Shown: positions 2,909 through 54,982 of the stretch, in pieces
How positions within the stretch are numbered: position 1 is the first letter of the stretch
Layout of the letters: each line of letters starts with the position of its first letter
DNA from: a virus
Strand: one strand, 5' to 3'
Virus record (IMG/VR): IMGVR_UViG_3300033156_000984
Location: 1-60,056 of that record
Length of the DNA stretch: 60,056 nucleotides
Made by a program: the position numbers and the translations under genes
Notes under the pieces: model-generated
The model's database searches: none
Seen by the model: only the letters and a program-made list of their open reading frames with translations
Told to the model about the DNA's origin: nothing

Positions 2909-2934
2909 ATAAAGAAGAGGAGGGAAAGAAAAAA

Positions 2935-35893: not shown

Positions 35894-36401
35894 CGATTAT
35901 TCCTCCTTTTGTATATAATCTAACTTTAGGTGTAACTTCTTTACCTAATAATCTTCTTGATAAAGCTCGTGAGAAATTATTTATTTCTTGTAGTTTTAGA
36001 TCAAGAAATTCTTTGAAGGTATTACGTCCCAACATCTTTGAACTCCCTGTAATAACAGCTTCAATATATTTGAATTTATTTAAATCATTATCAGAAAATC
36101 CAATGAAGAATTTGTCTGAGATATTATTTTCAAATTGTGCTAACTCTCTCATTACAGAATGTGACCATGCTAAATGTTGATAAGCTTTACCAGTTTTGCG
36201 ATGTACATACCCAAATGGATGTTCAGATGTTATTAGATGAGGTTTTGGGTGTTGTCTGGAATATGGATGATGTTTTTTAATCCATTTTTGAGTATGTGAA
36301 CAATTTGGGTTAAACCACGATAGAACTGAATTATGGATATATCTAGCAAATTCTCGTTTGAATTGTAGTAATTTCTCAAGATGACGGCGGCTTAGTGGCA
36401 T
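35883..36401 (-). CDS. Neck/head-tail joining-type protein
   Basis: This encodes about 172 residues from the ATG at 36401, preceded by AGAGGTGAGG. It is rich in His and aromatic residues (residues 30-70: HHPYSRQHPKPH) with helical flanks. HK97 gp10-like or minor-tail proteins occupy this place in relatives. The motif is not specific, so the assignment rests on context. It overlaps the large glycosyltransferase gene upstream. Confidence 0.6.
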   Translation of the reverse strand: MPLSRRHLEKLLQFKREFARYIHNSVLSWFNPNCSHTQKWIKKHHPYSRQHPKPHLITSEHPFGYVHRKTGKAYQHLAWSHSVMRELAQFENNISDKFFIGFSDNDLNKFKYIEAVITGSSKMLGRNTFKEFLDLKLQEINNFSRALSRRLLGKEVTPKVRLYTKGGIIDVQ

Positions 36402-38700
36402 CTTCCTCACCTCTTTGATGTAATTTCACTTCAGTTGCACTTTCTAATTTTTCGAGGAGTTGCCTTAGACTTCTAGTAATTATATGCCTACCTCGCTCAG
36501 CGTCTTTAATAGCTTTCCTTATACTTTCTTTAGCTAATGCCAAATATGCTAATCCTCTTTGTTCCCAATAATACACATTTACATTTCCTTTAGCATATTT
36601 CTCACAATTGTCTAGAGCTTTTAAAGCTTCTTGAGCATTTCCTTGTTCTAATAATTGTACCGCATAATTATACCATGCTCTATAATTAGTTGGGTCTTTC
36701 TTAAGTTCTTCTTGAGTTACCTTAATATACAATTCTTTATTTCTAATATATTCTTCTTTATCCATTAAACCTAGATTAATTCCTTTAATTGGACAGTCAC
36801 AGAGGGTATATTTTAGTTCTTTCAAAGAGTCATCCACACATTCATGTACTTTTCCATAAAATTTAATTTCTGGATGATGTTTCCAAATTCTTACAGTAGA
36901 AGAAGGGATTGCTTTGCCATCCCATTTCAAATTAAGGAATTCTATTAACATGGCATCAGCAGGACACAATCTTATGATTTTAGATAGATTCAAAATGTTT
37001 TCATAATGCTCATCTGGATCCATATACATCACCCATCTGGTTCTAATTAATTTCAATCCATCATTGCGACATTTTGAAAAATCTTGTTCTAGCGGTGAGT
37101 GGATATATTCAAATTCTAATAGTTGGGAAATTTGGAATAGCTCATCAAACGGTTGTAGTGAAGTATCCACTAAAACTACTTGATCAAATAGAGTATAATA
37201 ACCCCGGAGAATGAATCTGATAAACTCTTCAAAATTTTCTTTACCAGCCAGGAGTAATAATCCAACACTATGATCTTCTTCTAGATCATTGATATAAATT
37301 TTACAGGGTTTAACACTGAAGAAAATTTTTTCATATGAATCGGTTCCAAGAAATACATAGTTAGGATTTGGATCTATATTTTTATAAAACTCATATTTAC
37401 GTTTTACCTCTTCTTTATTATACGCCCAAAAATGAGCTATAGAATGATTAGAGGCAAAAATTCCATTCAGAATACGCTGGAGTGGATGCTGGATGGAATG
37501 AACCTGAACTTCATTATCGGGACCAAAAACATAATTATTGGGAAAAACTCGACTTCCTCGATAAGCAATTTCATCGAATTTAAATTGTATAATGAAATCT
37601 GAATGAAAAACCATCCAAGGAAAAGCATGCACTAGCTGAGATGGAAGCGCTGTTCTCAATACTTTGCGGAAAGAATCCTCATTCCCTAACATTATTTCAT
37701 CATCATCAAGACAAAATCTCCAAGGTATATTGCATTCCAAGGAGTAATCGATTTCCCATTGGAATATCTCTCTGAAATTAATTTTTTTGTCCCAGTTAAC
37801 TAATTTAATCTTATTATATTTTCTTGAATATTCCTCTATAAGTTCCTTGGAGCCGTCTTTTGATTCATTATCTATTACTACTATCTCATCAGCATACTTC
37901 AATGCATTATTAAGAGTTTTCTCCAATAATTTCTTTCTATTATGAGATTGAATGAAAAAAATATTACGATCTGAGTTTTGTGGAATGTGTTTCTTAAGGT
38001 ATTTTATTCCATCTTCGCAATTAATATGCGAATTTCGAGTTTTGTGTTTAACTATTAAATATCTTGTAAGGTAAACACTATAACCACTTTGCCACATTCT
38101 AATGAAGAGATCATTGTCATTAAAATGATATGAGAATTGAGTATCAAATCCTCCCAATTTTTCAAATACATTTTTCTTAACATAAAAACAATAACTAGCG
38201 GCGAGCATAATTTCCTGAACTCTTGGTTCGCAATTACGTTGAAGATCATTAATATCTATTTCTTCCCACCCCTTTTTTAAAGAAGTCTGAGCAGGATTGC
38301 CCACATATCCAACCCCCGAAGCTATTATGGCGGCAACAGGTCCAAATTTATCTTTAGTAAATTCACTAGCTAATGCATAGGAAAACTGAAATCTTTCAAT
38401 TAAATCTTGAGGGACTTCTATATCAGCATCCATACATATTACTTCAGGAAATTTGGCCAGTTTTACTGCATAGTTCATCCCAATTTGATATCTATCGGAT
38501 TCGATTTTCTCATATCGCAAAAAATCCTTTTTCTTCTTTAAAAAACCACGTATGAACTCTCGAGTCCCATCCTGTGAATTTGTATCTATGACAATAATTT
38601 CTAAATTATCTTTATACTTTTCTTTAATTGGAGTTAATTGTTTGAGTAGATTATATAAATGATTTAGTTGGTTATGAGTTACAATGCAAATTGAGTACAT
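36376..38700 (-). CDS. Multi-domain glycosyltransferase (three GT2-like domains plus TPR)
   Basis: This encodes about 774 residues from the ATG at 38700 (ribosome site GAAGGAGGG). Three GT-A-like units follow one another: IVIDTNSQDGT with MDADIEV, then VVIDNESKDGS with CLDDDEIML, then VLVDTSLQPF with YMDPDEHYE. Each shows a nucleotide-sugar pocket Asp and a DxD-like metal motif. TPR-like helices follow at about 665-740 (AWYNYAVQLLEQGNAQEALK). It is embedded between connector and neck genes, so glycosylation of capsid, tail or host surface is possible. The target is unknown. Confidence 0.85.
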   Translation of the reverse strand: MYSICIVTHNQLNHLYNLLKQLTPIKEKYKDNLEIIVIDTNSQDGTREFIRGFLKKKKDFLRYEKIESDRYQIGMNYAVKLAKFPEVICMDADIEVPQDLIERFQFSYALASEFTKDKFGPVAAIIASGVGYVGNPAQTSLKKGWEEIDINDLQRNCEPRVQEIMLAASYCFYVKKNVFEKLGGFDTQFSYHFNDNDLFIRMWQSGYSVYLTRYLIVKHKTRNSHINCEDGIKYLKKHIPQNSDRNIFFIQSHNRKKLLEKTLNNALKYADEIVVIDNESKDGSKELIEEYSRKYNKIKLVNWDKKINFREIFQWEIDYSLECNIPWRFCLDDDEIMLGNEDSFRKVLRTALPSQLVHAFPWMVFHSDFIIQFKFDEIAYRGSRVFPNNYVFGPDNEVQVHSIQHPLQRILNGIFASNHSIAHFWAYNKEEVKRKYEFYKNIDPNPNYVFLGTDSYEKIFFSVKPCKIYINDLEEDHSVGLLLLAGKENFEEFIRFILRGYYTLFDQVVLVDTSLQPFDELFQISQLLEFEYIHSPLEQDFSKCRNDGLKLIRTRWVMYMDPDEHYENILNLSKIIRLCPADAMLIEFLNLKWDGKAIPSSTVRIWKHHPEIKFYGKVHECVDDSLKELKYTLCDCPIKGINLGLMDKEEYIRNKELYIKVTQEELKKDPTNYRAWYNYAVQLLEQGNAQEALKALDNCEKYAKGNVNVYYWEQRGLAYLALAKESIRKAIKDAERGRHIITRSLRQLLEKLESATEVKLHQRGEEDATKPPSS

Positions 38701-38719
38701 CCAAAATCCCTCCTTCAAT

Positions 38720-40185: not shown

Positions 40186-41202
40186 TTACAAGGTGCGCTT
40201 CACACCAACCAGAGCAGCTATACCATAAGGATCATTCACTACAAGTACACTACGCTCATATACTTCGAACTCTTCAACCTGCGCTGAAGTCTTACCTAAT
40301 GACTCTTTCTTAAGTGGTACCAAATCAACGAAGAATACATTATCAAGATTCACGCAGAAGAATGCAGTTGAGTCTCCACCCCAGAGCTGATATCTAGTAA
40401 GACCACTAGCTGCAGCACTTGATATTAGACCATTAGGATCAAGTGTTATAGTATCAGGTATTGCAGAAGTTACAAAGATGGGGACACCTTCATAAGAAGG
40501 AACTTTGATACCGGGATCAACTTCAGTTGTATTTAATGATAGATAACCATATACCAATCCTTTAAGCTCACGGAGTCCACCCTCAGAACAGAATATTGCT
40601 TTCTTCTTACCCTTCACTGAAGATATTAGCTCATCAAGTTTAGTCAATGTTAGTGTAGCTGCATTAGCATCGCTTCCCATCTGGATAACCCTATCATCAC
40701 CGATATTGAACTCAGTAGTAGCATTAGCACAGTAATAGTACAGACCACTCATCTCAGTTATTGCAGTAGTAGCATCAGCACGTCCCCAGAACATTAGCCA
40801 TGTCTCACGCTCAACTATTCGATTTATTATGAATTGTATTTCATCCTGTAATAGGTCAGTCTTTTCTTTTCCTTTATCAATATCTGCCTGATATACTTTA
40901 CCTTTCATACCAAAGTTCACATAGTTAAAGCTCTTGAGATATACAGTACCTGTTTCCTCATCAAGCGAAGTATCGTCATCTGCAAATTCTGCTAGTAATG
41001 ATTGAGTTGTATAAGGATCGGTCTGTGATACATGATAACGTACATCATAACCACGACCGCTACCACGCTTACGTGGCACAACTGCCCGCACTTCATTGAT
41101 ATAGCGTGCATAGTCACGTAGCTGTTCGTCTTCTAAAGCACCCCAATCGACAGAGGAATCCATATTAAGATCTTTCAATACTTCGATGGGATCTACCTGC
41201 AT
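40186..41202 (-). CDS. Major capsid protein, HK97 fold
   Basis: This encodes 338 residues. It lies directly after the prohead protease and before the connectors, and its composition (E-loop-like charged part near 75-110, Thr/Ala-rich P-domain, end VVNDPYGIAALVGVKRTL) fits HK97-type capsid proteins. Codon use is less AT-extreme (more GTA, CGT, ACC) than in neighbours, as for strongly expressed genes. The terminator-like hairpin after it supports high expression. The protease may remove part of the N-terminus. Confidence 0.85.
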   Translation of the reverse strand: MQVDPIEVLKDLNMDSSVDWGALEDEQLRDYARYINEVRAVVPRKRGSGRGYDVRYHVSQTDPYTTQSLLAEFADDDTSLDEETGTVYLKSFNYVNFGMKGKVYQADIDKGKEKTDLLQDEIQFIINRIVERETWLMFWGRADATTAITEMSGLYYYCANATTEFNIGDDRVIQMGSDANAATLTLTKLDELISSVKGKKKAIFCSEGGLRELKGLVYGYLSLNTTEVDPGIKVPSYEGVPIFVTSAIPDTITLDPNGLISSAAASGLTRYQLWGGDSTAFFCVNLDNVFFVDLVPLKKESLGKTSAQVEEFEVYERSVLVVNDPYGIAALVGVKRTL

Positions 41203-41208
41203 GCGTCA

Positions 41209-42459
41209 TCACCTCTCATATCGTTCTTTCAACTCAAGGATTGTACGTAACCTTTCTTCAGGTGTCAGTTCTTTTAGTCTTTCTCTTATTTCTTTTATTA
41301 CGTCTTTAGTTTCGGGTTTGTCGTCACGAGGCTGTAACCCTTTCCTAACGGGTACAGATTCGGCGACATCTTCAATTAATTGTGTCATTTTTGTTTCAAA
41401 TGCTTTAATCTTTTCATCTATTTTATTGAGAATATCCTTAGTTACTTCCTCAATATCGAGTTCTTTGGTTGGATAAGGATATGGATAACCATACTCCTCA
41501 CTGAGTTTCCGAAGCTCTTCAATCATCGCATCAATCTTGTCCTTAAGTTTCTTATCATCAATTTTACCTTTGAGTGTCTTTAGAAGTGCTATCACTTTCT
41601 GTATAGTATCTGCACTCTTTATAACCAAATCTTTTAGTTTTTCTATTTCAGTATCATCTGTGTTTTCATTATCTTCCTTTGTATCATCTTCTCTGGAATT
41701 ATCTACTTCTTTCGTCTGATCTTTAGTTTCATTAGTCGTATCCTGATCCTTTGCATCAGCAGATTTCTGAGTATCCTTAGCACCCTGAGAAGCATTCTGT
41801 GGCTCATCTCCTTCATTAGTAGGATTATCCACAATGGTGTCATCAGTATCTTTAGTTACATCCTTAGTCTGCTCATCCTCATCCTTCTTTTTCTTAAGAT
41901 CATCATCACGATTACCAACAACCATATCATCCACCTCCAATGCCTTCGATACATAATAACTCATTATCTTTGATAATGGTTGAGCTGGTAATGAAACTAA
42001 TGAGATTTCAAATATTTCTAAGTCATCACATACAAGGATTGTTCTACTGAGTTCTTCATTCCATTCCTCATGATATCTTACTCGGCCTCTGTATGAGAAT
42101 GAATTAATTATACCTTGAGTGATTTGATTCCAAATCCAATCATTATATTTATCTATCATAATTTTAACTCTAATTCCTTTATCGTCAAGTTTAAACTCTA
42201 AAAGTTTGCCTATAGGATAATTTTTTTCATGATTAAATAATACGGTATTACAGAATTTTAATGACTCTAATGCTCGTTCTGCTGCTTTCTTAGAGATAAT
42301 TTCAAATTCTCTATCAGGTGTTTCAACCATTAAGATATATCCCTCAACTATTCTATCTCCTTTCTCTTCATCTTTCTTAGTTTCGGATTCATAGCTTCGT
42401 ACTATATCAAAATATCCTTCGAATTCTTTTGTTCTAACTTCGTTAACAGTTATGCCCAT
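41209..42459 (-). CDS. Prohead protease fused to scaffold-like domain
   Basis: This encodes about 416 residues from the ATG at 42459 (AAAGGGGGTGAG). Residues about 1-170 are a U35-type prohead protease: FNHEKNYPIG contains the catalytic His, SFSYRG the Ser, and EIFEISLVSLPAQP the conserved end. Then come about 100 acidic, Asp/Thr/Lys-rich residues and a C-terminal coiled coil (about 280-415), typical of a fused scaffold or delta domain. It would cleave itself and the capsid protein during maturation. The overlapping gene upstream is the LigD-like ligase. Confidence 0.92.
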   Translation of the reverse strand: MGITVNEVRTKEFEGYFDIVRSYESETKKDEEKGDRIVEGYILMVETPDREFEIISKKAAERALESLKFCNTVLFNHEKNYPIGKLLEFKLDDKGIRVKIMIDKYNDWIWNQITQGIINSFSYRGRVRYHEEWNEELSRTILVCDDLEIFEISLVSLPAQPLSKIMSYYVSKALEVDDMVVGNRDDDLKKKKDEDEQTKDVTKDTDDTIVDNPTNEGDEPQNASQGAKDTQKSADAKDQDTTNETKDQTKEVDNSREDDTKEDNENTDDTEIEKLKDLVIKSADTIQKVIALLKTLKGKIDDKKLKDKIDAMIEELRKLSEEYGYPYPYPTKELDIEEVTKDILNKIDEKIKAFETKMTQLIEDVAESVPVRKGLQPRDDKPETKDVIKEIRERLKELTPEERLRTILELKERYER

Positions 42460-42463
42460 GAAC

Positions 42464-45400
42464 TCACCCCCTTTCAGAGCCAGGCGATTTCTCAACCTTC
42501 TTCATAAACCAAGCTTCACCTTTCTTTTCAAATAAGAATACACCTTCTACACGATTTCCCTTGAACTCAATCTTCTTGATTCCTACTGAATCTTCATAAA
42601 TTATTATACCCCCACTATCAAGTTTTTCAACAAACATTTCAGTGTTTTTAGTTTCATTAGCAGGATGATTGGGTGGTATGTAACCATGAAGATTTGAATA
42701 ATCTTCTTTTTCTTTTCTGATATATACCTCATCACCGCCAAATCTAACGACATCTTCGATTTTATTTGGAAGTATTATCGCATAATGATTATTGCCAACC
42801 GAATATCTAATAGCCCAATACCTAAGCGACGGTGAAACTCTAACCACTAATGGACCTTTGTAATAGATGTACTGATAAACAAATCGTCCTTTAACTTGAC
42901 AAACTATCTCTTTTGATTTACTTCGCTCATATTCAATTTGAATTTCACCTTTCTTAATTAATTCAACTAATTCATTCCTTACAGTTAAAGCACCTTCTAA
43001 ATTACCTACAGTCCAATATCTATATTCTTTGGGTATCTGTCTTCTAATATATCTAGGTAAAGCTGAGAATCCTACTGGTGGCATCCAACCTTCATCTACA
43101 GCACGTTTTGATAATACATAAGGTTCTTGATCATCTGGTTTTATTGCTAACCATCCATATTCACCACGTCCAAATTCTCCTTCTGAAGGTGGTAAGACCT
43201 CTTCAGCTAATTTCTCTAATTCTTCCAGAATCTCATTTCTATAGAATGGTAACTCATCTTCGGAATACAATTTATTATAATCAAACTCAAGCACTTCAAG
43301 GATATCTTCGGGTATATCTAATGATTTAAATTTTTCATTCTCTAAAGCTTTCCAGATATTTTTAATCCTTCTGAATACTAATCTATAATTCATTACTTTA
43401 CCATCAAGGAAATATTCATGAAACCATGGTTTTTGCGCACCATATTCCACATATCCTCGATCTATGATATGAAATACACCGGGATAATTTTTTGTGGCAC
43501 CAACTTTGCCGGGAGGTACTACTCCTTCAAATTCTAACCATTCAAATGGTTCCGGTGCAGCTTTCACAGCTGCTATCTCAACATTAACTAATTTTGAATC
43601 ACGTTTACGTTTTTTCCATTCACCTGTCTGCCAATTTATTTTAAAATATTTTTCCGATTCAGCATCAATTTTCTTAGCCTGCTCAAGTGTTAATACAGGT
43701 TCTTTTATAGTATCTTTGATTAAGTCCGCTAGCGTGAATTTAATTAAAACTTCATTTTTAACTAACTCAAATCGTGGATCGGTATGGCAAGTACGTCCTC
43801 TGAAATGATGTTGTGCTACATACTTGCATCGTTTATCTTCATCTGGTAATCTCATATATGGATCACTGGGTGTGAGATAATCTTTAGTGATATCCAAATC
43901 TTTAGCTTTCAAATCTTTCGGAATTTTGAATGTACAAACCAGATACCAATCATATCCAGTTCTTGCGTGAATTGCACCTAGCCAGTTTCTTCTATCACCA
44001 AATATAACTAAACCTAGTTTGGTATTTGGAGGAAGCTCAAATCGTTTGCGATTGATTATCTTAAGGATAGATTCACGATCTAGTTCAATGAAATCATCTG
44101 CTATCTCAAACAATACTTCTAAGAAGATTTTTCGTGAAACTGGTTTCATTTTTTCAGGATGGAAAGTAGTATTTCTCCTTGAAATTAATTCTTCCATAAT
44201 CTGTTTCAGCAATCTTTTAACTTTAGCTTTTGTTATTCCAGATATTACTTCTCCTTGTTCTAATCTGCTATACCAAGCTAATGCAATTCTGAAATCATCT
44301 CGTAATTGTTCGGTTTGTAATCTTTCTGGATTATATTTATCTATTTCTTGAATCTTTTCTGAGAAATGGGATTGTAATAATCTGATAACCTCCTTGAAAT
44401 TCTTTGGTTGTATAAATTTAATCTCATCCTTACGAGTGATTAGTTTCATCACTAATACCTCATTCTTGTATGCTTCCTCAAGTGCATTAACTAAATTAGA
44501 AGTACGCCTCTTTGTGGTATCTATAATTCTAGGCGCCCATATCCCAATATCGAATTTTCCCTTAATATTATCAATTATTAAGTTCATTTGTTCTCCTTCG
44601 ATTATGATTCTATCACCTTTCTTTAGTTTGACATCTGTATTAAAAGTTCGTCCGATTACTATTTTGCCATCTTGTACATCCTCGAAGTAATCCGAGTACT
44701 TCGAAGTTAATCCAATAGTATAATTATAAACTCCTTTTGTCTTTGTTTCATGTACATCTAAAATTTCAACTACTACAAGGAATGCTTTATGCCATTTAAG
44801 CCATCCGTTTCTTGAATTTACATCTAAATAATATTTTGCATTATGTTTTTTTATCACGACACCTTCAGAACCAGGCTTATGCGATAATTCTTCACATATT
44901 TCTTTAAATTTATCAAAATCATAATCTTCTAATTCGATATTAGGTACCTCATTTAATTTATGATTTTTTACATCCGGAATTTCTAAAGTTGAATATCCAA
45001 TACCTAATTTACGTAAGTATTCCTGCCGAACCTCTTCAAATGCACGATGTAAATCTCCAATTTTGCCATAGTACAAGCAAGTAAATACATTAGCTATGAA
45101 ATTAGAATCATCAACCTCTCCAAGTCTGTGTACATAAGCTGCTACAGCTTCACGTGGTTGATGTTCACCGTTTATCCAGCATTCAATCTCTGCATCAAGA
45201 ATGAATTGCTCAACCTTGAGTTTTAATAATTCCTTCACCATATTTGGGAATTTTCTTGTATGATCAGTTCCATCTTCAGAAATTATCTTGACTTTATTTT
45301 TATCTCTAAAAATCAAGACTCGATATCCATCATATTTCTTTGATATATAAATAGGCATATCGTCTTCCTTGATTAATTCCCATACAGCTTCCAAACTTTG

Positions 45401-45568
45401 TGGTTCGCCTTTAACTGTTACTCTTACAGGTTTCATTCCATAGAAGAATCGATTTAGTTTAATTCTATCTTCTTCTTTAGATTTTTCAGCTTGATCTTTG
45501 AAACGTTCAGCAAGGTATTTGGTTTTGTATCCCTGAATTGTAGCTAACGTACATTTCAGGAAATCCAT
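42464..45568 (-). CDS. ATP-dependent DNA ligase with tandem LigD-like phosphoesterase domains
   Basis: This encodes 1034 residues. Residues about 40-350 form an ATP-dependent DNA ligase core: KKYDGYR at 77-83 (adenylated Lys78), DAEIEC at 125-130, EGVVIK at 235-240, WLKWHK at 256-261, then an OB-fold ending IWAPRIID. Residues about 515-740 resemble the LigD 3'-phosphoesterase: QHHFRGRTCHTDPRFE retains H595-x-D597-x-R599, and FEGVVPPGKVGA follows; an expected His before this seems to be Glu673. Residues about 890-1030 look like a second, degenerate copy. The gene lies between portal and protease genes, so it may be virion-associated, which is inference. Confidence 0.88.
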   Translation of the reverse strand: MDFLKCTLATIQGYKTKYLAERFKDQAEKSKEEDRIKLNRFFYGMKPVRVTVKGEPQSLEAVWELIKEDDMPIYISKKYDGYRVLIFRDKNKVKIISEDGTDHTRKFPNMVKELLKLKVEQFILDAEIECWINGEHQPREAVAAYVHRLGEVDDSNFIANVFTCLYYGKIGDLHRAFEEVRQEYLRKLGIGYSTLEIPDVKNHKLNEVPNIELEDYDFDKFKEICEELSHKPGSEGVVIKKHNAKYYLDVNSRNGWLKWHKAFLVVVEILDVHETKTKGVYNYTIGLTSKYSDYFEDVQDGKIVIGRTFNTDVKLKKGDRIIIEGEQMNLIIDNIKGKFDIGIWAPRIIDTTKRRTSNLVNALEEAYKNEVLVMKLITRKDEIKFIQPKNFKEVIRLLQSHFSEKIQEIDKYNPERLQTEQLRDDFRIALAWYSRLEQGEVISGITKAKVKRLLKQIMEELISRRNTTFHPEKMKPVSRKIFLEVLFEIADDFIELDRESILKIINRKRFELPPNTKLGLVIFGDRRNWLGAIHARTGYDWYLVCTFKIPKDLKAKDLDITKDYLTPSDPYMRLPDEDKRCKYVAQHHFRGRTCHTDPRFELVKNEVLIKFTLADLIKDTIKEPVLTLEQAKKIDAESEKYFKINWQTGEWKKRKRDSKLVNVEIAAVKAAPEPFEWLEFEGVVPPGKVGATKNYPGVFHIIDRGYVEYGAQKPWFHEYFLDGKVMNYRLVFRRIKNIWKALENEKFKSLDIPEDILEVLEFDYNKLYSEDELPFYRNEILEELEKLAEEVLPPSEGEFGRGEYGWLAIKPDDQEPYVLSKRAVDEGWMPPVGFSALPRYIRRQIPKEYRYWTVGNLEGALTVRNELVELIKKGEIQIEYERSKSKEIVCQVKGRFVYQYIYYKGPLVVRVSPSLRYWAIRYSVGNNHYAIILPNKIEDVVRFGGDEVYIRKEKEDYSNLHGYIPPNHPANETKNTEMFVEKLDSGGIIIYEDSVGIKKIEFKGNRVEGVFLFEKKGEAWFMKKVEKSPGSERG

Positions 45569-45569
45569 A

Positions 45570-46067
45570 TCAATATTCCCCTTTCAATTTAAGGAATGGA
45601 GCATTCTCCCATTTATCAGGGGTTAAATAATCTTCTACTTTGATATCCATACCTGCATACTTGAAAGCCTCTGCCATACCTTCAGTACAAGTATATTTAT
45701 CTTTTAGATTAATTTTGAATATTATCGAAAAAGGAATTTTTAATACTATTCCAATTCCTGTAACGATTAAGAGTAGAAAATCATATTTACGTTTTTCAGC
45801 AATCTTTTTCTCGAAGAACTCAACTATTTTTTCTTCGAAACCTTCTGGTGCATTTTCAATTTCATATATTCTTATTTTGTATAAAGTGAGAGGTCCAATC
45901 TTCTTATATCTAAATCTTTCAGTAGAAGATGTCTTCCTAAATCCAAACCATCCAACCTCATAGATAGTATCAGATGATAGATAAGCTATATGATTACCCC
46001 AAGAATTACATATTTGTCGAATTGCAGTTCCAACAGGGGAATACTCATCTCGAAAGATTACTATCAT
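45570..46067 (-). CDS. Permuted papain-like (NlpC/P60-type) hydrolase
   Basis: This encodes 165 residues. The order of a His in GNHIAYLSSD near residue 25 and a Cys in YTCTEGMAEAF near 128 matches circularly permuted NlpC/P60 (YiiX-like) enzymes, where the His precedes the nucleophile Cys. Such enzymes cleave amide or ester bonds in peptidoglycan or lipids. AAAGGAGGA precedes the ATG, and the ligase gene follows by 1 bp. It could be a virion lytic enzyme or an envelope-related protein; the substrate is unknown. Confidence 0.72.
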   Translation of the reverse strand: MIVIFRDEYSPVGTAIRQICNSWGNHIAYLSSDTIYEVGWFGFRKTSSTERFRYKKIGPLTLYKIRIYEIENAPEGFEEKIVEFFEKKIAEKRKYDFLLLIVTGIGIVLKIPFSIIFKINLKDKYTCTEGMAEAFKYAGMDIKVEDYLTPDKWENAPFLKLKGEY

Positions 46068-46086
46068 TGCAATTAATCCTCCTTTC

Positions 46087-47436
46087 TCATGCTAATTTAT
46101 TCTTCTGACATCCAAACACATACTCATAATGTCCATCAAATTTACTTAAAAAGTTCCATAACATTCTAAATACTCTCCAACCATATGGAAATTCCCAAGC
46201 ATCATGCATGTGGAAATTATCTGCATCCATGAAAGGTGTTTCATTATAAACTAGCGCTTTGGTTTGACTCAGAACCAAATCTTCGATATCATATGCTTCC
46301 TCATAACCATTTAATTCAACACCTAGTCTGGGTGAACCATAAATATAAAGATTGCGTAATCGAGTATCCACAGTCTTTATTGGATGAACTTCTTTTAATT
46401 TTGATTCACGTTCACCATTATAGGGCATAATTTTAGTAGCGTTAACTGAATTGACATCGTATTTCCTCAAAATTTCAGCCATACTGGGTGAAATAATGCA
46501 ATGTGGAGCTATCCAGTGACGACCTAATAAATCCTGTAAATTTACTTGATATATTTTAGAGATGTCTTTAAGATAATTTTCTTCGGTTCCTTGAAAATCA
46601 TGTATTTCAAACTGAAAAGCAAAATCCATATAAATATGTAATCTAAAATTTTGATAATGCTCTTTGATATATTTCCGAATTTCTTCTATTACTTTCTCAT
46701 TTAGGATAATAGTTTCAGCAATAGCGCAAGTAAATTTCATACCTTTGCTTATAGCTTCTTTGAAAAATTCAATAATATAAATATTTTCATTTTCATCCTT
46801 TAATTGAGAAAGAGAAGCAAAAGCCATTGGAAATCCCTCAATATCAAATGCAAATCGTATCTTACTTAAGTTACCAAATTGTTCCGGGAACATTTCAACT
46901 AAGTATTTTCTTAAAAATAACAAACCCGGATCACATGATAGTTCTGGATTATTAGTCCAATCATGGAAATAATATGCTTGACCAAACCCCTCCCACCCTT
47001 CAGCAGTCCCTACCATACCTGCAATGATATATGTATTGGATTCTTGATTTGTGGTCAACCATGGTATGATGTTGCTATAACCTTCTACATTAATAATTGC
47101 ACCCCCCCAAAGAGGATCAGAATAATATCCCCAATCCTCATCTGAATTATAAAAATAGCCTACAGAGGGTGGATATACGTTCCAAGGAATAAAGTGAAAA
47201 ATTGGTATATTTCCTCGTAAATTTCGTAAACGTTCTTCGGAGTTTTCACCTAAAATCTCCCCAAATGTTATTAACATATCTACTTCAGGGATATTCCTTA
47301 ATTGAAATGGGAGTTCAACAAAAACTACTTTATACCCATTTTCTTGAAAATATTTTGCTAATCTACTACATACTAATTTTGCAAGTTCAGCTATATCAAC
47401 ATATGAAATTTTTACTCCAATCCTGAGAAGCTGCAT
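46087..47436 (-). CDS. Possible polysaccharide deacetylase-like (NodB fold) protein
   Basis: This encodes 449 residues. A FAFDIEGFPM segment (near 200) is like the catalytic Asp strand of NodB-type deacetylases, and later FQFEIHDFQG and HWIAPHCIISPSMAEILRKY are in the places of the metal-His and barrel motifs. The match is partial and I rate it low. The rest is alpha/beta with many aromatics. It is one of several non-standard genes between portal and protease, perhaps a virion surface enzyme acting on glycans. Confidence 0.5.
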   Translation of the reverse strand: MQLLRIGVKISYVDIAELAKLVCSRLAKYFQENGYKVVFVELPFQLRNIPEVDMLITFGEILGENSEERLRNLRGNIPIFHFIPWNVYPPSVGYFYNSDEDWGYYSDPLWGGAIINVEGYSNIIPWLTTNQESNTYIIAGMVGTAEGWEGFGQAYYFHDWTNNPELSCDPGLLFLRKYLVEMFPEQFGNLSKIRFAFDIEGFPMAFASLSQLKDENENIYIIEFFKEAISKGMKFTCAIAETIILNEKVIEEIRKYIKEHYQNFRLHIYMDFAFQFEIHDFQGTEENYLKDISKIYQVNLQDLLGRHWIAPHCIISPSMAEILRKYDVNSVNATKIMPYNGERESKLKEVHPIKTVDTRLRNLYIYGSPRLGVELNGYEEAYDIEDLVLSQTKALVYNETPFMDADNFHMHDAWEFPYGWRVFRMLWNFLSKFDGHYEYVFGCQKNKLA

Positions 47437-47442
47437 GATGAA

Positions 47443-47841
47443 TCACCTACCAAACAACCTAATTGTATATGTCACAACACCGCTGACTTCAATTACTAAT
47501 GCTGGATATAAACTTTCCGATTCAGTATATTCCCAAGCTGATGTTGCGCTTACTGTATCTGAGGTGATAAAAATCGTATATGGTGATGTTAAATCCCATT
47601 TTGAAAGTGTGACTAAAGCATCTGTCCCTTCTTCATTATCGAATTTCAACCAATATTTAGAATAATCTGAAACATTTATAGTGATTAAACTAGCTGAAGT
47701 CTCGATCGAAACCCCAGATAATGGCATTGTAGGATTAACAGGTAAATATGTATTACTTGCAAACCAATCGCTTAAGGTTTTCACACCTTCAACATTTAAT
47801 TTTTCAAAGAATTCTCGCCATTCATCTAGTGTATTGAACAT
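47443..47841 (-). CDS. Beta-sandwich virion-type protein
   Basis: This encodes 132 residues: an amphipathic N-terminal helix (DEWREFFEKLNVEGVKTLSDW) then Ser/Thr-rich strands ending TYTIRLFGR, as in a small beta-sandwich. The helix-then-sandwich layout is shared with the product of 49168-49644. These could be decoration or fibre proteins. No specific family is recognised. Confidence 0.6.
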   Translation of the reverse strand: MFNTLDEWREFFEKLNVEGVKTLSDWFASNTYLPVNPTMPLSGVSIETSASLITINVSDYSKYWLKFDNEEGTDALVTLSKWDLTSPYTIFITSDTVSATSAWEYTESESLYPALVIEVSGVVTYTIRLFGR

Positions 47842-47868
47842 CCTAGCTCACTCCCTCTTTCCATCGAA

Positions 47869-49155
47869 TCAAAATAACTCAGAAACTATCCTTTCATAAA
47901 ATTTCCAAATATCTTCTAATCTAACTGGGATCCATCCTGATTTTTTTATGGTTTCAATTACCTTATCAAATTCATAATCAAATACAGAAAATTCCGCTTC
48001 CCCCAAATTAGAAATTGAATCCGCAATTCCTGGAATCACTATACTTGCTATTCCGGTTAGATTTTTCAAGATTATCAGATATTGTTTTAGAAAATCCAAT
48101 TTTCCATTATCTTCTATCCCTTTAACCGTTAAGTGAGATTCATCTATCTCCCAAGGTTTTTCTTTAGAAGCGAGTAATTGCCCTAATTGAAATACATATT
48201 TGTTTGCAAAATGTTGATTCACTAGATTAATCCAATGTCTATTGGTATTTACTGAATTTAAAGACAAATCATATTGAAATCCGTTATCACGAACGCTTTC
48301 GATTTTAGAAAAATCAGGATGGGTAGTTATTGCTTGGGTGGGGCTTGTAATTCGCTTTTTATCATCTTTGATATATCGATCACTTTCCATTTCATAAGTG
48401 CTAGAATATCCATAAACTCGATGAAAAGATTCTTGTAAATCTTTTATCGTGAAAATATCCCATTTGGGTTCCTGATAAATCTCGATAGGTCTAAGAGAGA
48501 GAGAACATCTTCTACGTAATTTAGATTTTATTCTATTTGCAGTTTTTTCTCCATTATATTCCATAACTTCAGGAAAATGTACTATTATTCCTAAAATAGG
48601 TATAAAATTATCTAATTTGACAAGGAAGAAATTTGTATAATCAAATTGAGCAGCGGTATTGCGAACATTTTGCTGAAAGCCAATGTAACCTTTAAAATGT
48701 CCAATATTTTTGAAACATACAGCTGAAACTTGGAATTCATTCTCTACACGCGGTAAGGAACGTAATTTATAAGTAGAATAATCACAATTCGGTGGGTCAT
48801 AATTATGGAACCTATTCGTAAATTCTGTATAATTCACAGATATGTGATTATCATCAAAAGTTCTCAATCTATCGTTTCTAAAACGAACTTTAAGTCCTGT
48901 GTGATAAGTATTTTCAGCTTCCGAAAAATCCCATCGAGTTTGGCAACCGATAACATAATACCCCGGCTCAAGTTCTATATATTGATATATACCAAAACCT
49001 ATAGTTTGATTCTTTACTCTAATGAAATTCTTTCCGTTTTCCGATAGGAGATTAATTGAGCTTTGATTCCAACCACTCCATCCGTTTAAACCATCACTTA
49101 AATCACCATTGGTGAAATAATTATCAGAAATCTGAATCCTTTTAAGAGATTTCAT
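47869..49155 (-). CDS. Carbohydrate-binding-like protein with extra C-terminal domain
   Basis: This encodes 428 residues. The first 180 (NYFTNGDLSDGLNGWSGW, with long antiparallel strands ending YTNFFLVKLD) look like a CBM4/9-type jelly-roll carbohydrate-binding domain. The C-terminal half starts GIIVHFPEVMEYNGE and ends with helices (VIETIKKSGWIPVRLEDIW); it faintly resembles polysaccharide deacetylase ends, without clear metal ligands. It fits a virion protein that binds a cell-surface glycan. The assignment of the second domain is weak. Confidence 0.6.
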   Translation of the reverse strand: MKSLKRIQISDNYFTNGDLSDGLNGWSGWNQSSINLLSENGKNFIRVKNQTIGFGIYQYIELEPGYYVIGCQTRWDFSEAENTYHTGLKVRFRNDRLRTFDDNHISVNYTEFTNRFHNYDPPNCDYSTYKLRSLPRVENEFQVSAVCFKNIGHFKGYIGFQQNVRNTAAQFDYTNFFLVKLDNFIPILGIIVHFPEVMEYNGEKTANRIKSKLRRRCSLSLRPIEIYQEPKWDIFTIKDLQESFHRVYGYSSTYEMESDRYIKDDKKRITSPTQAITTHPDFSKIESVRDNGFQYDLSLNSVNTNRHWINLVNQHFANKYVFQLGQLLASKEKPWEIDESHLTVKGIEDNGKLDFLKQYLIILKNLTGIASIVIPGIADSISNLGEAEFSVFDYEFDKVIETIKKSGWIPVRLEDIWKFYERIVSELF

Positions 49156-49167
49156 AGTACATCACCT

Positions 49168-49644
49168 TCATGAAGTGAACGAAAAATCCCAAATCATTTT
49201 AACGAAATCTATAATCAAAGTACAGTTTGTATCTAGATAGAAAGTAAATTGAATTCCTGTTGGATAATATTCATTCATAATATTTCCCCAACTCGTAGAA
49301 TCACTTCTAAGGGTTGCATCATAACCATCTGAAAGGGTTACAGTCCTATACAGTAAACTATTAGTAGATGGATTGTAAAGAAATTCTACTGTTATTACTA
49401 CATCAGTTGCGCCTGTATAAATAAATCTTACATCATATTCAATAGCATCTGATAAATCCAATGTAATACAAAATTCACCTGATTCATCAAAACTCCATCC
49501 TGTATAAGTTCTTTGAGGTTTAGAAATCCATTTTTCTAATTCTGAGACTGGTAATCCACCATTTAATGCTTCAACATCATAATCCCAATTTCCTCGAGTA
49601 ATTCCTTCAAGGAATTTAATTAATAAATCATTTATATTAGGCAT
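49168..49644 (-). CDS. Beta-sandwich virion-type protein
   Basis: This encodes 158 residues: a short helical start (INDLLIKFLEGITRG) followed by about ten predicted strands with Tyr/Thr/Asp turns. It shares layout but not clear sequence with the product of 47443-47841. GAGGGAGG precedes the start. It follows the nucleotidyltransferase-like gene by 2 bp. A decoration or fibre role is likely but not shown. Confidence 0.6.
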   Translation of the reverse strand: MPNINDLLIKFLEGITRGNWDYDVEALNGGLPVSELEKWISKPQRTYTGWSFDESGEFCITLDLSDAIEYDVRFIYTGATDVVITVEFLYNPSTNSLLYRTVTLSDGYDATLRSDSTSWGNIMNEYYPTGIQFTFYLDTNCTLIIDFVKMIWDFSFTS

Positions 49645-49646
49645 CT

Positions 49647-50135
49647 TTAAAAACCTCCCTCTATTTCCTCCTCATCAAAAACTGAATCATAATTACGTAA
49701 TTTTAGTTCTCGTTTGATTAATTCTTCTAGGAATAATAATTCCTCCTTACTTAAATTGGATAAATCCAATCCGTCAGTAGAGTTATATGATAATTCTATT
49801 ATTTTACTATCATCTATTCGTTCTAATTTCAATCTATATAATGGATAATATGATGTAAACGGTCCATGAAACCTATCATATATGAAATGCGCACGTAGTG
49901 CTAGTTCCTTCGGCATATTACGCAGTATCCTAAATTTAATTGGTATATCTAAATCTTCTGGTAATGATTCGCTTCTAATCAAGAAATCTATATCACCTGT
50001 TGTACCTTCCTTATCATAAACGATCCCGCCTGTTAGATATACAAAAGGATCCTTAACAATGAATGATTCAAAATAATGTAGTATATCATTCAATTTAATT
50101 CGTTTACCTAAATTTTCGCCTGAATGCTGCATCAT
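49647..50135 (-). CDS. Nucleotidyltransferase-fold (Pol beta superfamily) protein
   Basis: This encodes 162 residues. Residues 33-54 contain YLTGGIVYDKEGTTGDIDFLI: a Gly-Gly pair followed by a D-x-D in a hydrophobic strand, the core signature of Pol beta-type nucleotidyltransferases. A third carboxylate could be in the RLKLERID strand near 105. It is small, like minimal nucleotidyltransferases. It is next to the portal gene and close to the LigD-like ligase, so it might transfer a nucleotide to DNA ends, RNA or protein. Substrate is unknown. Confidence 0.65.
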   Translation of the reverse strand: MMQHSGENLGKRIKLNDILHYFESFIVKDPFVYLTGGIVYDKEGTTGDIDFLIRSESLPEDLDIPIKFRILRNMPKELALRAHFIYDRFHGPFTSYYPLYRLKLERIDDSKIIELSYNSTDGLDLSNLSKEELLFLEELIKRELKLRNYDSVFDEEEIEGGF

Positions 50136-51314
50136 TCATTCAGCTCCATCCTTTACTTCTTCAATCGGTAATTTTTCAATCTTATTACCAAGTATCATGA
50201 TATTCCTATCCCCATCCTCTACCTCAGGTAGATTAATACCATAAATCCTAGATAATATTCTACGTGATTCGTTAATTGTAATTGCACCATAACGTATTGC
50301 ATCAGATATACTACGTAAAATAATTTCATCCTCACCCGGTGATGAGACTAGGAATTTTAATGAATATTCTTCACCAAATGATGGTACTATCAACTGATTA
50401 GTTAATTTACGTGCTATAATACTTAATAATGGTTTAATAGTACGTTCAGTAGTTATCTTTACAGAGAACGGTAGGTTAGTTTTAGAAGTAGTTTCAGTTG
50501 CATAACCAAAATCACCGGGATTAATACCGAAATTCTGAAATACAATTGATTCAAGCTGTAATTTCACTTCTGGATATGATTTATAATCAAATTTACTAGC
50601 AAGCTCAATCCATGATACGTCATCTGAGGTTACACCACGCATGATAGGTATTTCTTGCGCTTCCTCAAGCTGTTGTTTTAGTTTTTCGTATTCTTCATCA
50701 TTTAAATAAGGTACTAACAAGATACCATCAGGTGTGGTACCACCTAAGTAATCCATTAAATTACGTGAAGCTAATACTAATGAAGCAACCTCAACCTCGA
50801 TTGTATTTAATATTGGAAATCCCCAAATTTTGTTGCTACGTGTATGATAAACCATATGAATAATTTCATTACGCTTAAATTTAATTTCCTTACCTTCAAT
50901 TTTTTGAATATATGATAGAATCCTGCCGTGGTCATCAACCTCAATCTCGAAATGATGCGGCGCACGTACCCATAGCTCTACAATTTCATGTCCTCTAGTA
51001 CGTACTATTTCAATGAATGAAATATCATATAAGACTAAATCGAATACGATTTTCTGTACTAGATCATTTAAATCTTCATAGTTTACATTGATTGCTTTCA
51101 ACCAATCTTCGATTTCTTTACATGCTGAAGGATCGGGTCCTGCAACAAACCATATAGCTTCACCAGCTAGTTTACTTAGGAAATCTACACATTGACGTAC
51201 TATAGCTACCTTCTCATAAATTGTTTCAATTAATGGGAATGATAATCTACCTGCGGGTTTTAATTTATTAGTAAATAATCTATCAGTAGTTACCGTACCT
51301 TTAGGCGTAGGCAT
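50136..51314 (-). CDS. Portal protein, HK97-type
   Basis: This encodes about 392 residues from the ATG at 51314 (AAAGGTGG upstream). The order of motifs fits HK97/GTA-like portals: QCVDFLSKLAG near the start, then LVLYDISFIEIVR, a FKRNEIIHMVYHTRS segment followed by WGFPILNTI, and a long helical stem with FGINPGDFGY. It follows the terminase by 24 bp. It forms the dodecameric DNA gate. Confidence is high from both motif and place. Confidence 0.93.
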   Translation of the reverse strand: MPTPKGTVTTDRLFTNKLKPAGRLSFPLIETIYEKVAIVRQCVDFLSKLAGEAIWFVAGPDPSACKEIEDWLKAINVNYEDLNDLVQKIVFDLVLYDISFIEIVRTRGHEIVELWVRAPHHFEIEVDDHGRILSYIQKIEGKEIKFKRNEIIHMVYHTRSNKIWGFPILNTIEVEVASLVLASRNLMDYLGGTTPDGILLVPYLNDEEYEKLKQQLEEAQEIPIMRGVTSDDVSWIELASKFDYKSYPEVKLQLESIVFQNFGINPGDFGYATETTSKTNLPFSVKITTERTIKPLLSIIARKLTNQLIVPSFGEEYSLKFLVSSPGEDEIILRSISDAIRYGAITINESRRILSRIYGINLPEVEDGDRNIMILGNKIEKLPIEEVKDGAE

Positions 51315-51338
51315 TTTTATCCTAACCACCTTTCTTCA

Positions 51339-52769
51339 TCATGTAAATACCTTAATTACCTTGGGTTTCATTTGGATTGTTTCAATCTTGATAGGTGGGC
51401 GAAATGTGCGTTCTGATATACCTTCAAGAGCATAGTATAACGCATCTACACAATCATCATGCTTTGAATGTGGGAAGGTTAATAATTGTGTAAACATTTT
51501 ATCCCAATCTATTTCCTCATTAAATATTATGTGTCCATTCTCAAATTTTGTCAAATATTTTGTAAACCTCATTACCTTGCTTTCTGATGCTATACTACCT
51601 TTAATATCGAAACCATCTTGTAATAACTGATCATGTAACATTTTGAAACCTGTTACTTCCATATTAATGAATTTTGTATTCCATTTATGCTCAAGATTAA
51701 TTAAATGTGATTTAATCTGTTCATAACTAAATTTGCCTGCTAAATAATCAAGTATATATACCTTCTCAGGGTAATCTGGATTAATACCTACTACAACGAA
51801 ACATGTTTCATCAGGTCCTGAACCTGAAGCTGGATCTATGCCTATACCAGTTAACCAGGTTGATCTATCGAAATCAGTTCTATCTGTTATCAACCAGTAT
51901 GGCGAGATGATATTACCTTCCAGCTGTGAGAAATCCATCTGGTATTCAAGATTAAATCTTAAAGTACCCATGATACGTTTCCTACGTAGTAATTCTTCCG
52001 TTGGGAAGAATGATTCCCAAATTGAGTGTGGTTTACCTTCTGAATCGTAGTATAAAGCTTTAATTTTTAATGTTTTCATTAGTTTGTTTTTCATAATGTA
52101 AGCATGTAAATCTTCGGGTGAATGTGTTGTACCATTTACATGAATTCTACCACCTGCTAGCATCATTGGTAAGATTTCGTTAATGAATGTTTCAATTGTA
52201 CGTACAGCTGCTATACCTCTGCAATTATTTTTATCAACCAAATCATCGCATACTATTAAATCAACATGCCTTGCTCTGATGGTTGATTCCAAACCCAATG
52301 CTGTTAATGTTGGTGTATCCAATATTTTAGTTCGTTTTTTAACAGTGAACCTTAACTGATCCCATTGTAAATCTCGTGAGTACCATTCACCAAAAAATGA
52401 AATAAATACTGGATCTTGGAAATGTAGTTTCATTACGTTAGGTTGTAGTTTAGCTTGCGCTAATGTTTTTGATACAACTACTAATCTGATATCTGGATTT
52501 TTTAATATATTCCATAATACAAAAGCTCTATTACAAATCCAGCTTTTACCAAATCCTCTCGGTCCTAAGACTAATGTTTCTTTATTATCTAATTGAAATT
52601 TGAACATTTTCCTATGAAATGGTTGCAAATCCATCCTCAATACTATCATTATGAACATTTCCCATAGATTTTCTGATAGGATTAATTCGCCTGCTTCAAG
52701 ATATAATTCTCGTTCTATCAACTGGCATACCTTATCTTCAGCTTTACGTTTACGAGCTAAATTCACCAT
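51339..52769 (-). CDS. Terminase large subunit
   Basis: This encodes about 476 residues from the ATG at 52769, preceded by GAGGGAG; an upstream TTG at 52814 overlaps the previous gene. The ATPase has Walker A LGPRGFGKSW, Walker B LIVCDDLVD and coupling motif VNGTTHS. The RNase H-like nuclease has GIGIDPASGSG and, at the end, HDDCVDALYYALEG with the last catalytic Asp. It drives DNA into the prohead together with the portal next door. A small terminase subunit was not recognised. Confidence 0.95.
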   Translation of the reverse strand: MVNLARKRKAEDKVCQLIERELYLEAGELILSENLWEMFIMIVLRMDLQPFHRKMFKFQLDNKETLVLGPRGFGKSWICNRAFVLWNILKNPDIRLVVVSKTLAQAKLQPNVMKLHFQDPVFISFFGEWYSRDLQWDQLRFTVKKRTKILDTPTLTALGLESTIRARHVDLIVCDDLVDKNNCRGIAAVRTIETFINEILPMMLAGGRIHVNGTTHSPEDLHAYIMKNKLMKTLKIKALYYDSEGKPHSIWESFFPTEELLRRKRIMGTLRFNLEYQMDFSQLEGNIISPYWLITDRTDFDRSTWLTGIGIDPASGSGPDETCFVVVGINPDYPEKVYILDYLAGKFSYEQIKSHLINLEHKWNTKFINMEVTGFKMLHDQLLQDGFDIKGSIASESKVMRFTKYLTKFENGHIIFNEEIDWDKMFTQLLTFPHSKHDDCVDALYYALEGISERTFRPPIKIETIQMKPKVIKVFT

Positions 52770-52780
52770 TTTACCTAGAA

Positions 52781-53134
52781 CTACTCCCTCATTGGATACA
52801 TTAATACCTCCCAACCTGTGCCTCTACCATCTGATTTAATTAGTTCATAGCTCCATGAATTGATTGGATTGCCTTTTGAATCGTTTTCGTACCATCGCAT
52901 TAGGATATCATATTCGTTTGAAGTAATTAGATATATAACCCGATCACTGCAATGGAATTCATCTAATCCAATTATATTATACCTCTTATTTAAGGATTCT
53001 ATCACATTAATTGCATTTAATTTTTGTTCTAATGTTAGGTTATCTAATTGCATGATTCGTGGTTCTACTAAATTAACTGCACAGGATTGTAGAAATATTA
53101 ATAATATTAAACTACTATGGCGCAGGAGCTTCAT
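52781..53134 (-). CDS. Small lipoprotein-like protein
   Basis: This encodes 117 residues. The N-terminus is a lipoprotein-type signal peptide: basic MKLLR, hydrophobic LILLIF, then LQSC as a lipobox. The mature part is small and alpha/beta. Phage lipoproteins serve as outer spanins or superinfection exclusion factors; the location just before the terminase gene does not decide this. It overlaps the terminase ORF only in the alternative TTG start, and overlaps the previous gene by 20 bp. Confidence 0.7.
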   Translation of the reverse strand: MKLLRHSSLILLIFLQSCAVNLVEPRIMQLDNLTLEQKLNAINVIESLNKRYNIIGLDEFHCSDRVIYLITSNEYDILMRWYENDSKGNPINSWSYELIKSDGRGTGWEVLMYPMRE

Positions 53135-53725: not shown

Positions 53726-54982
53726 TTATTTATTGTGGAATAATCCAAATTCCTGTTCTAATCGTTTATTAGCGATTTCTATATAATCTGGATTTAATTC
53801 TATGCCAATCCAATTTCTACCTAATCGTTGTGCTACTATAGCTACTGTACCTGAACCCATGAATGGATCAAGTACAATACCAGCTTCCCAGCCTGCATTG
53901 CAACCACAATCAGTCCAGCCGATGCATTTACGTATCGCTACTGCATGTAAGGTACTATCATATGTCCCATGTGTTATAAATTCGGTATCAGCAGTATAAG
54001 GTTTGGGTTCGCTTTGTTTAATTACTTTAGTTCTTTCAATTATTCGTTCACGTGGTTTACCACATTTCTTGCAAACCCATCTTGGACAGCTTGATTTAAT
54101 CATTGGTTCAATTAATCTAGGTGGAAAGGTTGCAAAATGCGCATCCTTGAAAGGTTGTACTGGTATTGTCCATAAATCGCCTGGGTTTTTGCCGATGATG
54201 AATTCTTCTGAATTATGTCCGTTCAGTAGTTCTATCATAGTATCCGATTCATATTCGACCCTTACAGCATCTAGATCAAACCAGTATTTTTTATTTTTAA
54301 CCAGCATAAATATGGGTTCATATGCTCTGGTGAACCTATCCTTCACGCTGTCCGGTAAATGGTTTGGTTTATACCAAATTACTATGTTACGTAATATCCA
54401 GTCTTGCTCGTCGATCATGCGTAATATTAACCTATAATTTTGTAGCGCTAAGCATTTTGGTTTTAGTTTCGATTGCGGGGAAGGTTTGTATCTATATAAT
54501 TCAGATCTTGAAATGCTTGCAGTCTCACGCCAATCATATCTGCCGCAGTTGCTGCCACCATAACAATCACCATGATTCCAGTACATTACTCCTGTATCCT
54601 TTAATACACGTTTCAATTCAGCGGTTATTTGTAATAGATGATCAATATACATTTCTAATGTTGGTTCTAATCCTAATTGACCATACCATGCACCACATTT
54701 TTTACAGAATGCAAATCGTTGCGTGAAATGTAGGTGATCCTTAAAGTTGCCTATGCTGTTTTTTGTACCACCACGATATCGCATTCCTTCCTGGAATTGC
54801 CATTCGTGTTCACAGTTCGGATCACCATCCCATACCTTGAAAGTGCTTTCCCCATAGTACCTTAAACCCCAGTACGGAGGTGAGGTTATTATGCAATCTA
54901 CAAAATTGTCTGGCATTTGTTTTAGTACCTCTAATGCATCACCTTGATGAATCTTGTTTAGCCAGTCTGACTTTGTCTTCAT
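53726..54982 (-). CDS. DNA methyltransferase (N4-cytosine/N6-adenine type)
   Basis: This encodes 418 residues. Catalytic motif IV TSPPYWGLRYYG is at about 33-44, and the SAM-binding motif I DPFMGSGT with IGIELNPDY lies near the C-terminus, the beta-class order. SPPYW is typical of N4-cytosine enzymes, though N6-adenine activity is possible. Two zinc-ribbon-like Cys pairs (CKKCG twice) lie between. No restriction enzyme is nearby, so it is an orphan enzyme that probably protects phage DNA or marks packaging. It ends just before the structured element. Confidence 0.93.
   Translation of the reverse strand: MKTKSDWLNKIHQGDALEVLKQMPDNFVDCIITSPPYWGLRYYGESTFKVWDGDPNCEHEWQFQEGMRYRGGTKNSIGNFKDHLHFTQRFAFCKKCGAWYGQLGLEPTLEMYIDHLLQITAELKRVLKDTGVMYWNHGDCYGGSNCGRYDWRETASISRSELYRYKPSPQSKLKPKCLALQNYRLILRMIDEQDWILRNIVIWYKPNHLPDSVKDRFTRAYEPIFMLVKNKKYWFDLDAVRVEYESDTMIELLNGHNSEEFIIGKNPGDLWTIPVQPFKDAHFATFPPRLIEPMIKSSCPRWVCKKCGKPRERIIERTKVIKQSEPKPYTADTEFITHGTYDSTLHAVAIRKCIGWTDCGCNAGWEAGIVLDPFMGSGTVAIVAQRLGRNWIGIELNPDYIEIANKRLEQEFGLFHNK

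Follow-up and report, generated by a model that had tools for sequence, protein, structure and literature searches.

Why should a virus place a DNA ligase with LigD-like phosphoesterase domains among the genes for its head? The question is raised by IMG/VR virus record IMGVR_UViG_3300033156_000984, all 60,056 bases of which form the window analysed here, in which a 1034 amino acid (aa) protein and a 162 aa nucleotidyltransferase (NTase) are encoded within the virion gene block. A first-pass annotation, made from the sequence alone, had described the larger protein as a complete ATP-dependent ligase joined to a LigD-type phosphoesterase (PE) segment and a degenerate second copy, and had proposed that the two proteins form a virion-packaged set for the repair or circularisation of injected DNA, or else a structural protein derived from LigD. 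Both open reading frames exist, on the minus strand, which that annotation had left unstated. Their position between portal and prohead protease, away from the replication genes, also proved correct: transcription runs from terminase through portal, NTase, five late genes and the 1034 aa protein to the S78 prohead protease and the major capsid protein, and the replication genes lie in the opposite half of the window on the plus strand (Table 1).

The ligase core is complete. Residues 61–258 match PF01068 (E = 1.5e-18) and include motif I, KKYDGYR (K78), and motif IV, EGVVIK (E235, K240); the C-terminal part of the ligase region reads by eye as an OB domain. In the NCBIfam ranking the ATP-dependent ligase model PRK09632 came first, followed by two LigD-type models, and RNA_ligase matches were weak (E = 0.021 for the window, 0.0033 for the relative L024). 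Catalytic residues are close to invariant across 57 relatives (motif I K78 in 56/56, motif III E127, motif IV E235 and motif V K258 each in 57/57, motif IV K240 in 55/57); the ligase of one relative, L014, is degenerate. By sequence the protein appears to be a DNA-ligase-family enzyme.

The LigD phosphoesterase domains are harder to see. In the first of these, PE1, HTDPR begins at residue 595 and FEGVVPPGK at 680, yet in single-sequence hidden Markov model searches the LigD-PE model TIGR02777 stayed below threshold (E = 0.059 for the whole protein, 0.0088 for the segment); because these matches are weak, annotation pipelines report only a ligase. Profile–profile comparison by hhalign, against a reference profile of 44 cellular LigD-PE domains, recovered PE1 with 95.8% probability (E = 7.7e-9) and the C-terminal copy, PE2, with 97.5% (E = 8.7e-12); seven unrelated profiles reached at most 2.1%, and 20 column shuffles per query at most 6% (no more than 1.1% for PE1). 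The C-terminal 140 residues are, as had been suspected, a degenerate second copy, with HxDxR lost in the window and in 50 of 67 relatives and intact in the remaining 17. A common origin of PE1 and PE2 is suggested because each matches the cellular domain; direct comparison of the two profiles (2.5%, not significant) gives it no support.

Structure prediction agreed with the profile comparison. An AlphaFold model of residues 555–1034 had a mean pLDDT of 84.7, and all six PDB chains found with it by Foldseek at E ≤ 1e-3 were LigD phosphoesterases (3p4h, 3p43, 3n9b and 5dmp). The match to 3p4h had a TM of 0.79 by target, in a search that does not distinguish PE1 from PE2 as the matched copy. The row of the virus ANMV-1, a relative discussed below, was excluded from the alignments used for structure modelling. 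A PDB sequence profile search with PE and NTase yielded nothing useful, and a BFVD fold search gave a single poor match. The metal-ligand residues of PE1 are retained across relatives (H588, H595 and D597 in 64/64, R599 in 63/64), as is a family-specific QKPWFHEYF motif.

For the NTase, the earlier assignment stands in part. The GG...GDIDF motif is present, and all of 52 relatives keep G36, D48 and D50; the family match to Pfam NTP_transf_2 (PF01909) is subthreshold (E = 0.042), and the best fold matches, to MNT proteins (MNT antitoxins), are weak (E ≥ 0.6). The relative L072 has a DUF6932 match at the NTase position. Judged by motif, the protein would be a minimal Pol-beta/MNT-like NTase. Its identity with the AEP polymerase (POL) of LigD was considered and rejected, since the motif is GG..DxD and neither window protein matches a LigD polymerase. 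The suggestion that the locus brings together the three activities of LigD is therefore no longer tenable except as an analogy.

Searches of IMG/VR and GTDB contigs returned more than 80 loci, which were deduplicated to 75 contigs with PE1, ANMV-1 included; these contigs are fragments, and they were taken as independent on the basis of contig names and near-identity, not of a tree. Counted with iterated profiles, S78 and XkdF proteases being merged, ligase is present in 59 contigs, NTase in 56 and a D12 methyltransferase in 24. The genes are collinear, in the order portal – NTase – (DNA methyltransferases) – ligase – PE1 – PE2 – prohead protease. In all 38 fetched stretches that include a portal gene, that gene is upstream of the module and on its strand; the protease gene shares the strand in 56 of 56 cases, and in 55 of these it is fused or no more than 1.5 kb away. 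NTase is fused to ligase in 47 of the 75 contigs, ligase to PE in 47 and PE to protease in 32, with the protease at the C-terminus. Pfam identifies the fused protease above its cut-off as XkdF in the relatives tested (E-values of the 1e-28 class), and finds S78 or XkdF in the window and in most stand-alone neighbours tested. Among 30 complete portal-to-protease loci, 21 contain both NTase and ligase, 7 contain neither and 2 are discordant (Fisher p = 3e-5, uncorrected for phylogeny). The first-pass annotation had made its proposal depend on a structural match to LigD phosphoesterase, on catalytic residues being kept in homologues and on linkage among relatives; all three were found, and the pairing of NTase with ligase that it had noticed in one genome is a recurrent fusion.

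The relatives add further domains to this arrangement: a C5-cytosine methyltransferase in L008 and L042, a metallo-beta-lactamase (MBL) fold in L024, L029 and L067, and a 2H phosphoesterase in L055 and L072. In L024 (4578–8234), an Archaeoglobales metagenome-assembled genome contig, the MBL-fold domain is fused N-terminal to NTase and ligase, reminiscent of the MBL nuclease–ligase pairs of DNA repair operons. Separately, L002 (1307–2370) and L014 (9074–10000) carry an N-terminal domain with a DSGGF motif that by eye is TGT/DpdA-like; it has no Pfam match in either contig and, for L014, no PDB match. Several relatives also contain inteins, inserted independently at several places, which interrupt the ligase directly after KKYDG (L039) and PE1 just before the HxDxR histidine (L067, L025), at APEP (L066) or at GAQK/PWFHEY (L075). 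Pfam matched the intein domain in L039, L066 and L075; for L067 and L025 it is read from the motif split. Inteins tend to insert at conserved active-site motifs, and in enzymes that are functional.

How does the module compare with known systems? With LigD and the stand-alone archaeal PE (3p4h, 3p43, 5dmp, 3n9b) it shares the ATP ligase core and the 3′-phosphoesterase fold with H...HxDxR. It differs in that the ligase precedes the PE, the PE is in tandem with long insertions and has RG and QKPWFHEY family motifs, no histidine is conserved before FEG, there is no AEP polymerase and no Ku, and the genes lie in a head operon. Ku (PF02735) was found in 0 of 49 virus records, many of them fragmentary. 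Although two of the three activities are alike, we do not class the module as LigD, because the POL domain and Ku are missing: it is neither an orthologue of LigD nor a case of ordinary non-homologous end joining (NHEJ). Canonical NHEJ with a viral Ku was considered as a candidate, and is unlikely given the Ku count. The mycobacteriophages Omega and Corndog encode Ku and recruit host LigD, according to Pitcher et al. 2006 as recounted in PMC7719229. As far as that account extends, they resemble the present case in applying LigD-type end joining to the incoming phage genome; they bring Ku and borrow LigD, whereas this virus supplies a LigD-like protein from its head operon, but no Ku.

The polyvalent proteins offer a closer parallel in context, and it is by context, not by any single domain, that their class is defined. 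Two of its hallmarks are found here: several enzymatic domains per polypeptide in varying combinations, and location among head and packaging genes. The cargo also resembles theirs, with its D12 and C5 DNA methyltransferases, 2H phosphoesterase and MBL fold. In phages and conjugative elements, polyvalent proteins are predicted to be packaged, and their minimal NTases to modify proteins (Iyer et al. 2017; PMC5512222); they too are multidomain late proteins of portal–terminase phages with methyltransferase, 2H and NTase domains. The same paper contains no LigD or XkdF, mentions ligases rarely and only as RNA ligases, and describes polyvalent proteins as scarce in archaea, whereas the module is fused directly to a prohead protease and occurs in likely archaeal viruses. 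ArdC-N, zincin peptidase and MuF are absent from the Pfam matches of the window protein and of the relatives scanned, a search that divergent forms could escape. Prohead proteases of the Peptidase_S78 and XkdF families (PF04586, PF14550) are likewise comparable in that the protease domain adjoins or is fused to the module; in contrast to the usual forms, up to about 1600 residues of nucleic-acid enzymes here stand N-terminal to the protease.

One named virus has the same protein. ANMV-1 (KP703175), with a likely ANME (anaerobic methanotrophic archaea) host, encodes in AJP62006 an NTase–ligase–PE1–PE2 polypeptide adjoining the portal, annotated merely as an ATP-dependent DNA ligase and with the arginine of one HxDxR replaced (HGDLM). 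Although annotated as a MutT-like phage hydrolase, the product of the gene upstream (AJP62005.1, L018 1913–3193) is by Pfam a portal protein (PF06381, E = 3.2e-22), so that the order portal – NTase–ligase–PE holds in ANMV-1 as well. The ligase gene is not discussed in the ANMV-1 paper (PMC4372165). Among 50,697 phage records ANMV-1 alone contained a relative of the PE or the NTase, and plasmids contained none; PADLOC reported no defence family. In the part of the literature that was covered, on prohead proteases or archaeal viruses together with LigD or a ligase, no description of the module was found.

Homology of the ligase and of both PE domains, near-invariant catalytic residues, collinearity with and frequent fusion to the protease, and association with NTase and methyltransferases are observed directly. 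On these grounds we lean, with modest confidence, towards the module being a DNA end-healing and sealing set of the head operon, a polyvalent virion cargo that repairs and protects the incoming genome. On the best reading of its conserved residues, the repair protein is predicted to be catalytically competent. Produced late, the module would enter the prohead alongside the maturation protease or joined to it, and the protease would then cut it free; it would stay in the capsid and accompany the DNA into the next cell. In that cell PE1 might remove a 3′-phosphate or another block from 3′ ends, and the ligase might seal nicks or join ends, perhaps together with the NTase on a common substrate; where present, N6-A or C5 methyltransferases might mark the DNA.

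Several observations weigh against this interpretation. We infer packaging and delivery from gene order and fusion, the virion-packaged set of the first-pass annotation being likewise only proposed, and the 49 virus records offer no Ku. The histidine that precedes FEG in LigD PE, which we take to be H84 of the P. aeruginosa enzyme, is not kept in PE1, whose activity may in consequence differ from that of LigD PE. In the ligase, motif I R83 is kept in only 33 of 57 relatives and many sequences lack the second motif V lysine, so the preferred substrate may be DNA or RNA. PE1 is retained in the 7 of 30 complete loci that have neither NTase nor ligase; sealing is therefore not a universal function, and what stays constant is the PE and not the whole set.

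The same gene order and protease fusion would also be expected of a module that heals and seals motor-stalling nicks and gaps during packaging, in the prohead or at the portal, and that is not needed after injection. Packaging motors are sensitive to nicks, as in T4, and the module ligase is the sole ligase of these viruses: none of 26 large virus records has a second one, and 20 carry that of the module. The DNA methyltransferase, 2H and MBL-fold cargo is better suited to protection of incoming DNA, and we regard a role confined to packaging as unlikely, if the most plausible of the other explanations. The missing second ligase gene could also mean that ligase and PE are ordinary cytoplasmic replication or repair enzymes that merely happen to sit in a late operon. 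This we think improbable: the prohead protease is fused in 32 contigs and its adjacency is fixed in 55 of 56, the replication genes of the window are on the other strand and in the other half, and seven complete loci have the PE without a ligase.

A purely structural, LigD-derived protein without catalysis, the second proposal of the first-pass annotation, would account for the loss of HxDxR from most PE2 copies and for the degenerate ligase of L014. It is very hard to reconcile with the catalytic residues of ligase, PE1 and NTase, which hardly vary, and the inteins within active-site motifs of ligase and PE1 further disfavour it, so that we give it hardly any credence. A different substrate or target, whether tRNAs cut by defence nucleases and mended by the module or a host protein nucleotidylated by the NTase, deserves somewhat more weight and is still doubtful. 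The weak RNA_ligase matches, the 2H phosphoesterase of L055 and L072 and the frequent replacement of R83 favour it, as does the predicted protein modification by the minimal NTases of polyvalent proteins (PMC5512222); against it, the PF01068 DNA ligase score is far better, LigD-type models are among the best NCBIfam matches, and DNA methyltransferases accompany the module in 24 of 75 contigs.

Table 1 Features of the module and its neighbours in the window, in order of transcription.
Feature	Position	Strand	Match
Terminase large subunit	51339..52814	-	PHROG 38, E = 6.4e-64
Portal protein, 5′ neighbour of the NTase gene	50136..51329	-	PF04860, E = 4.1e-18
Predicted minimal NTase, 162 aa, GG...GDIDF; stand-alone here, ligase-fused in relatives	49647..50135	-	
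Five late genes (165, 449, 132, 428 and 158 aa) between NTase and ligase genes	45570..49644	-	no family assigned
LigD-like polyprotein, 1034 aa: ligase – helical region – PE1 – linker – PE2	42464..45568	-	
ATP-dependent ligase region (residues 20–380): adenylation core, motifs I, III, IV, V	44429..45511	-	
Region between ligase and PE (residues 385–560); separate gene in relative L014	43889..44416	-	blastp of segment
PE1, LigD-type 3′-phosphoesterase domain (residues 565–735): HHFRGRTCHTDPR ... FEG ... QKPWFHEYF	43364..43876	-	
Conserved linker (residues 736–888), W..IKPDDQ.PYVL..AV...W.PP.G.SALP	42905..43363	-	from alignment
PE2, second degenerate phosphoesterase copy (residues 889–1034)	42467..42904	-	
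Prohead serine protease S78	41209..42495	-	PF04586, E = 2.3e-15
Major capsid protein	40186..41202	-	PF17236, E = 6.6e-6

The true start of the protease is probably the ATG near 42459, 5 nt past the ligase stop. Directly upstream of the ligase gene, the 165 aa protein at 45570–46067 has PHROG 1128 as its sole match (E = 9.8e-6) and by eye is like permuted NlpC/P60 (YiiX-like) enzymes. Also within the virion gene block, a 780 aa protein (36376–38718) combines three GT2 glycosyltransferase stretches with TPR, and may serve in particle decoration. An N6/N4 DNA methylase is encoded upstream of the terminase gene (53726–54982), possibly a separate counterpart of the methyltransferases fused in relatives, and the left part of the record contains a MoxR AAA ATPase and VWA-domain protein pair (1796–3945). 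The 1005 aa protein at 17533–20550 matches primase small subunit, primase large subunit and MCM helicase; this archaeal-type fused replication protein points to an archaeal host, and the window virus is a tailed virus that probably infects an archaeon. Since some relatives' records carry helicases of the DnaB type in place of MCM, the module probably extends beyond archaeal viruses.

It is conceivable, at slightly less than an even chance, that many uncultivated tailed viruses share a hitherto undescribed class of polyproteins that travel in the virion, process themselves and repair and protect DNA, combining LigD-type PE with ligase, NTase, methyltransferases and protease fusion, and acting in genome restoration and perhaps circularisation on entry, without Ku. 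The module ties LigD-type end-healing chemistry to capsid assembly through direct protein fusion, and extends the idea of polyvalent proteins to likely archaeal viruses. This is biology invisible in model phages, the uncultivated ANMV-1 being the only one of the phage records searched with the PE or NTase parts. A further suggestion is that enzymes for DNA repair can travel in virions; they would be most useful to particles that persist for long between infections or against defences that make breaks.

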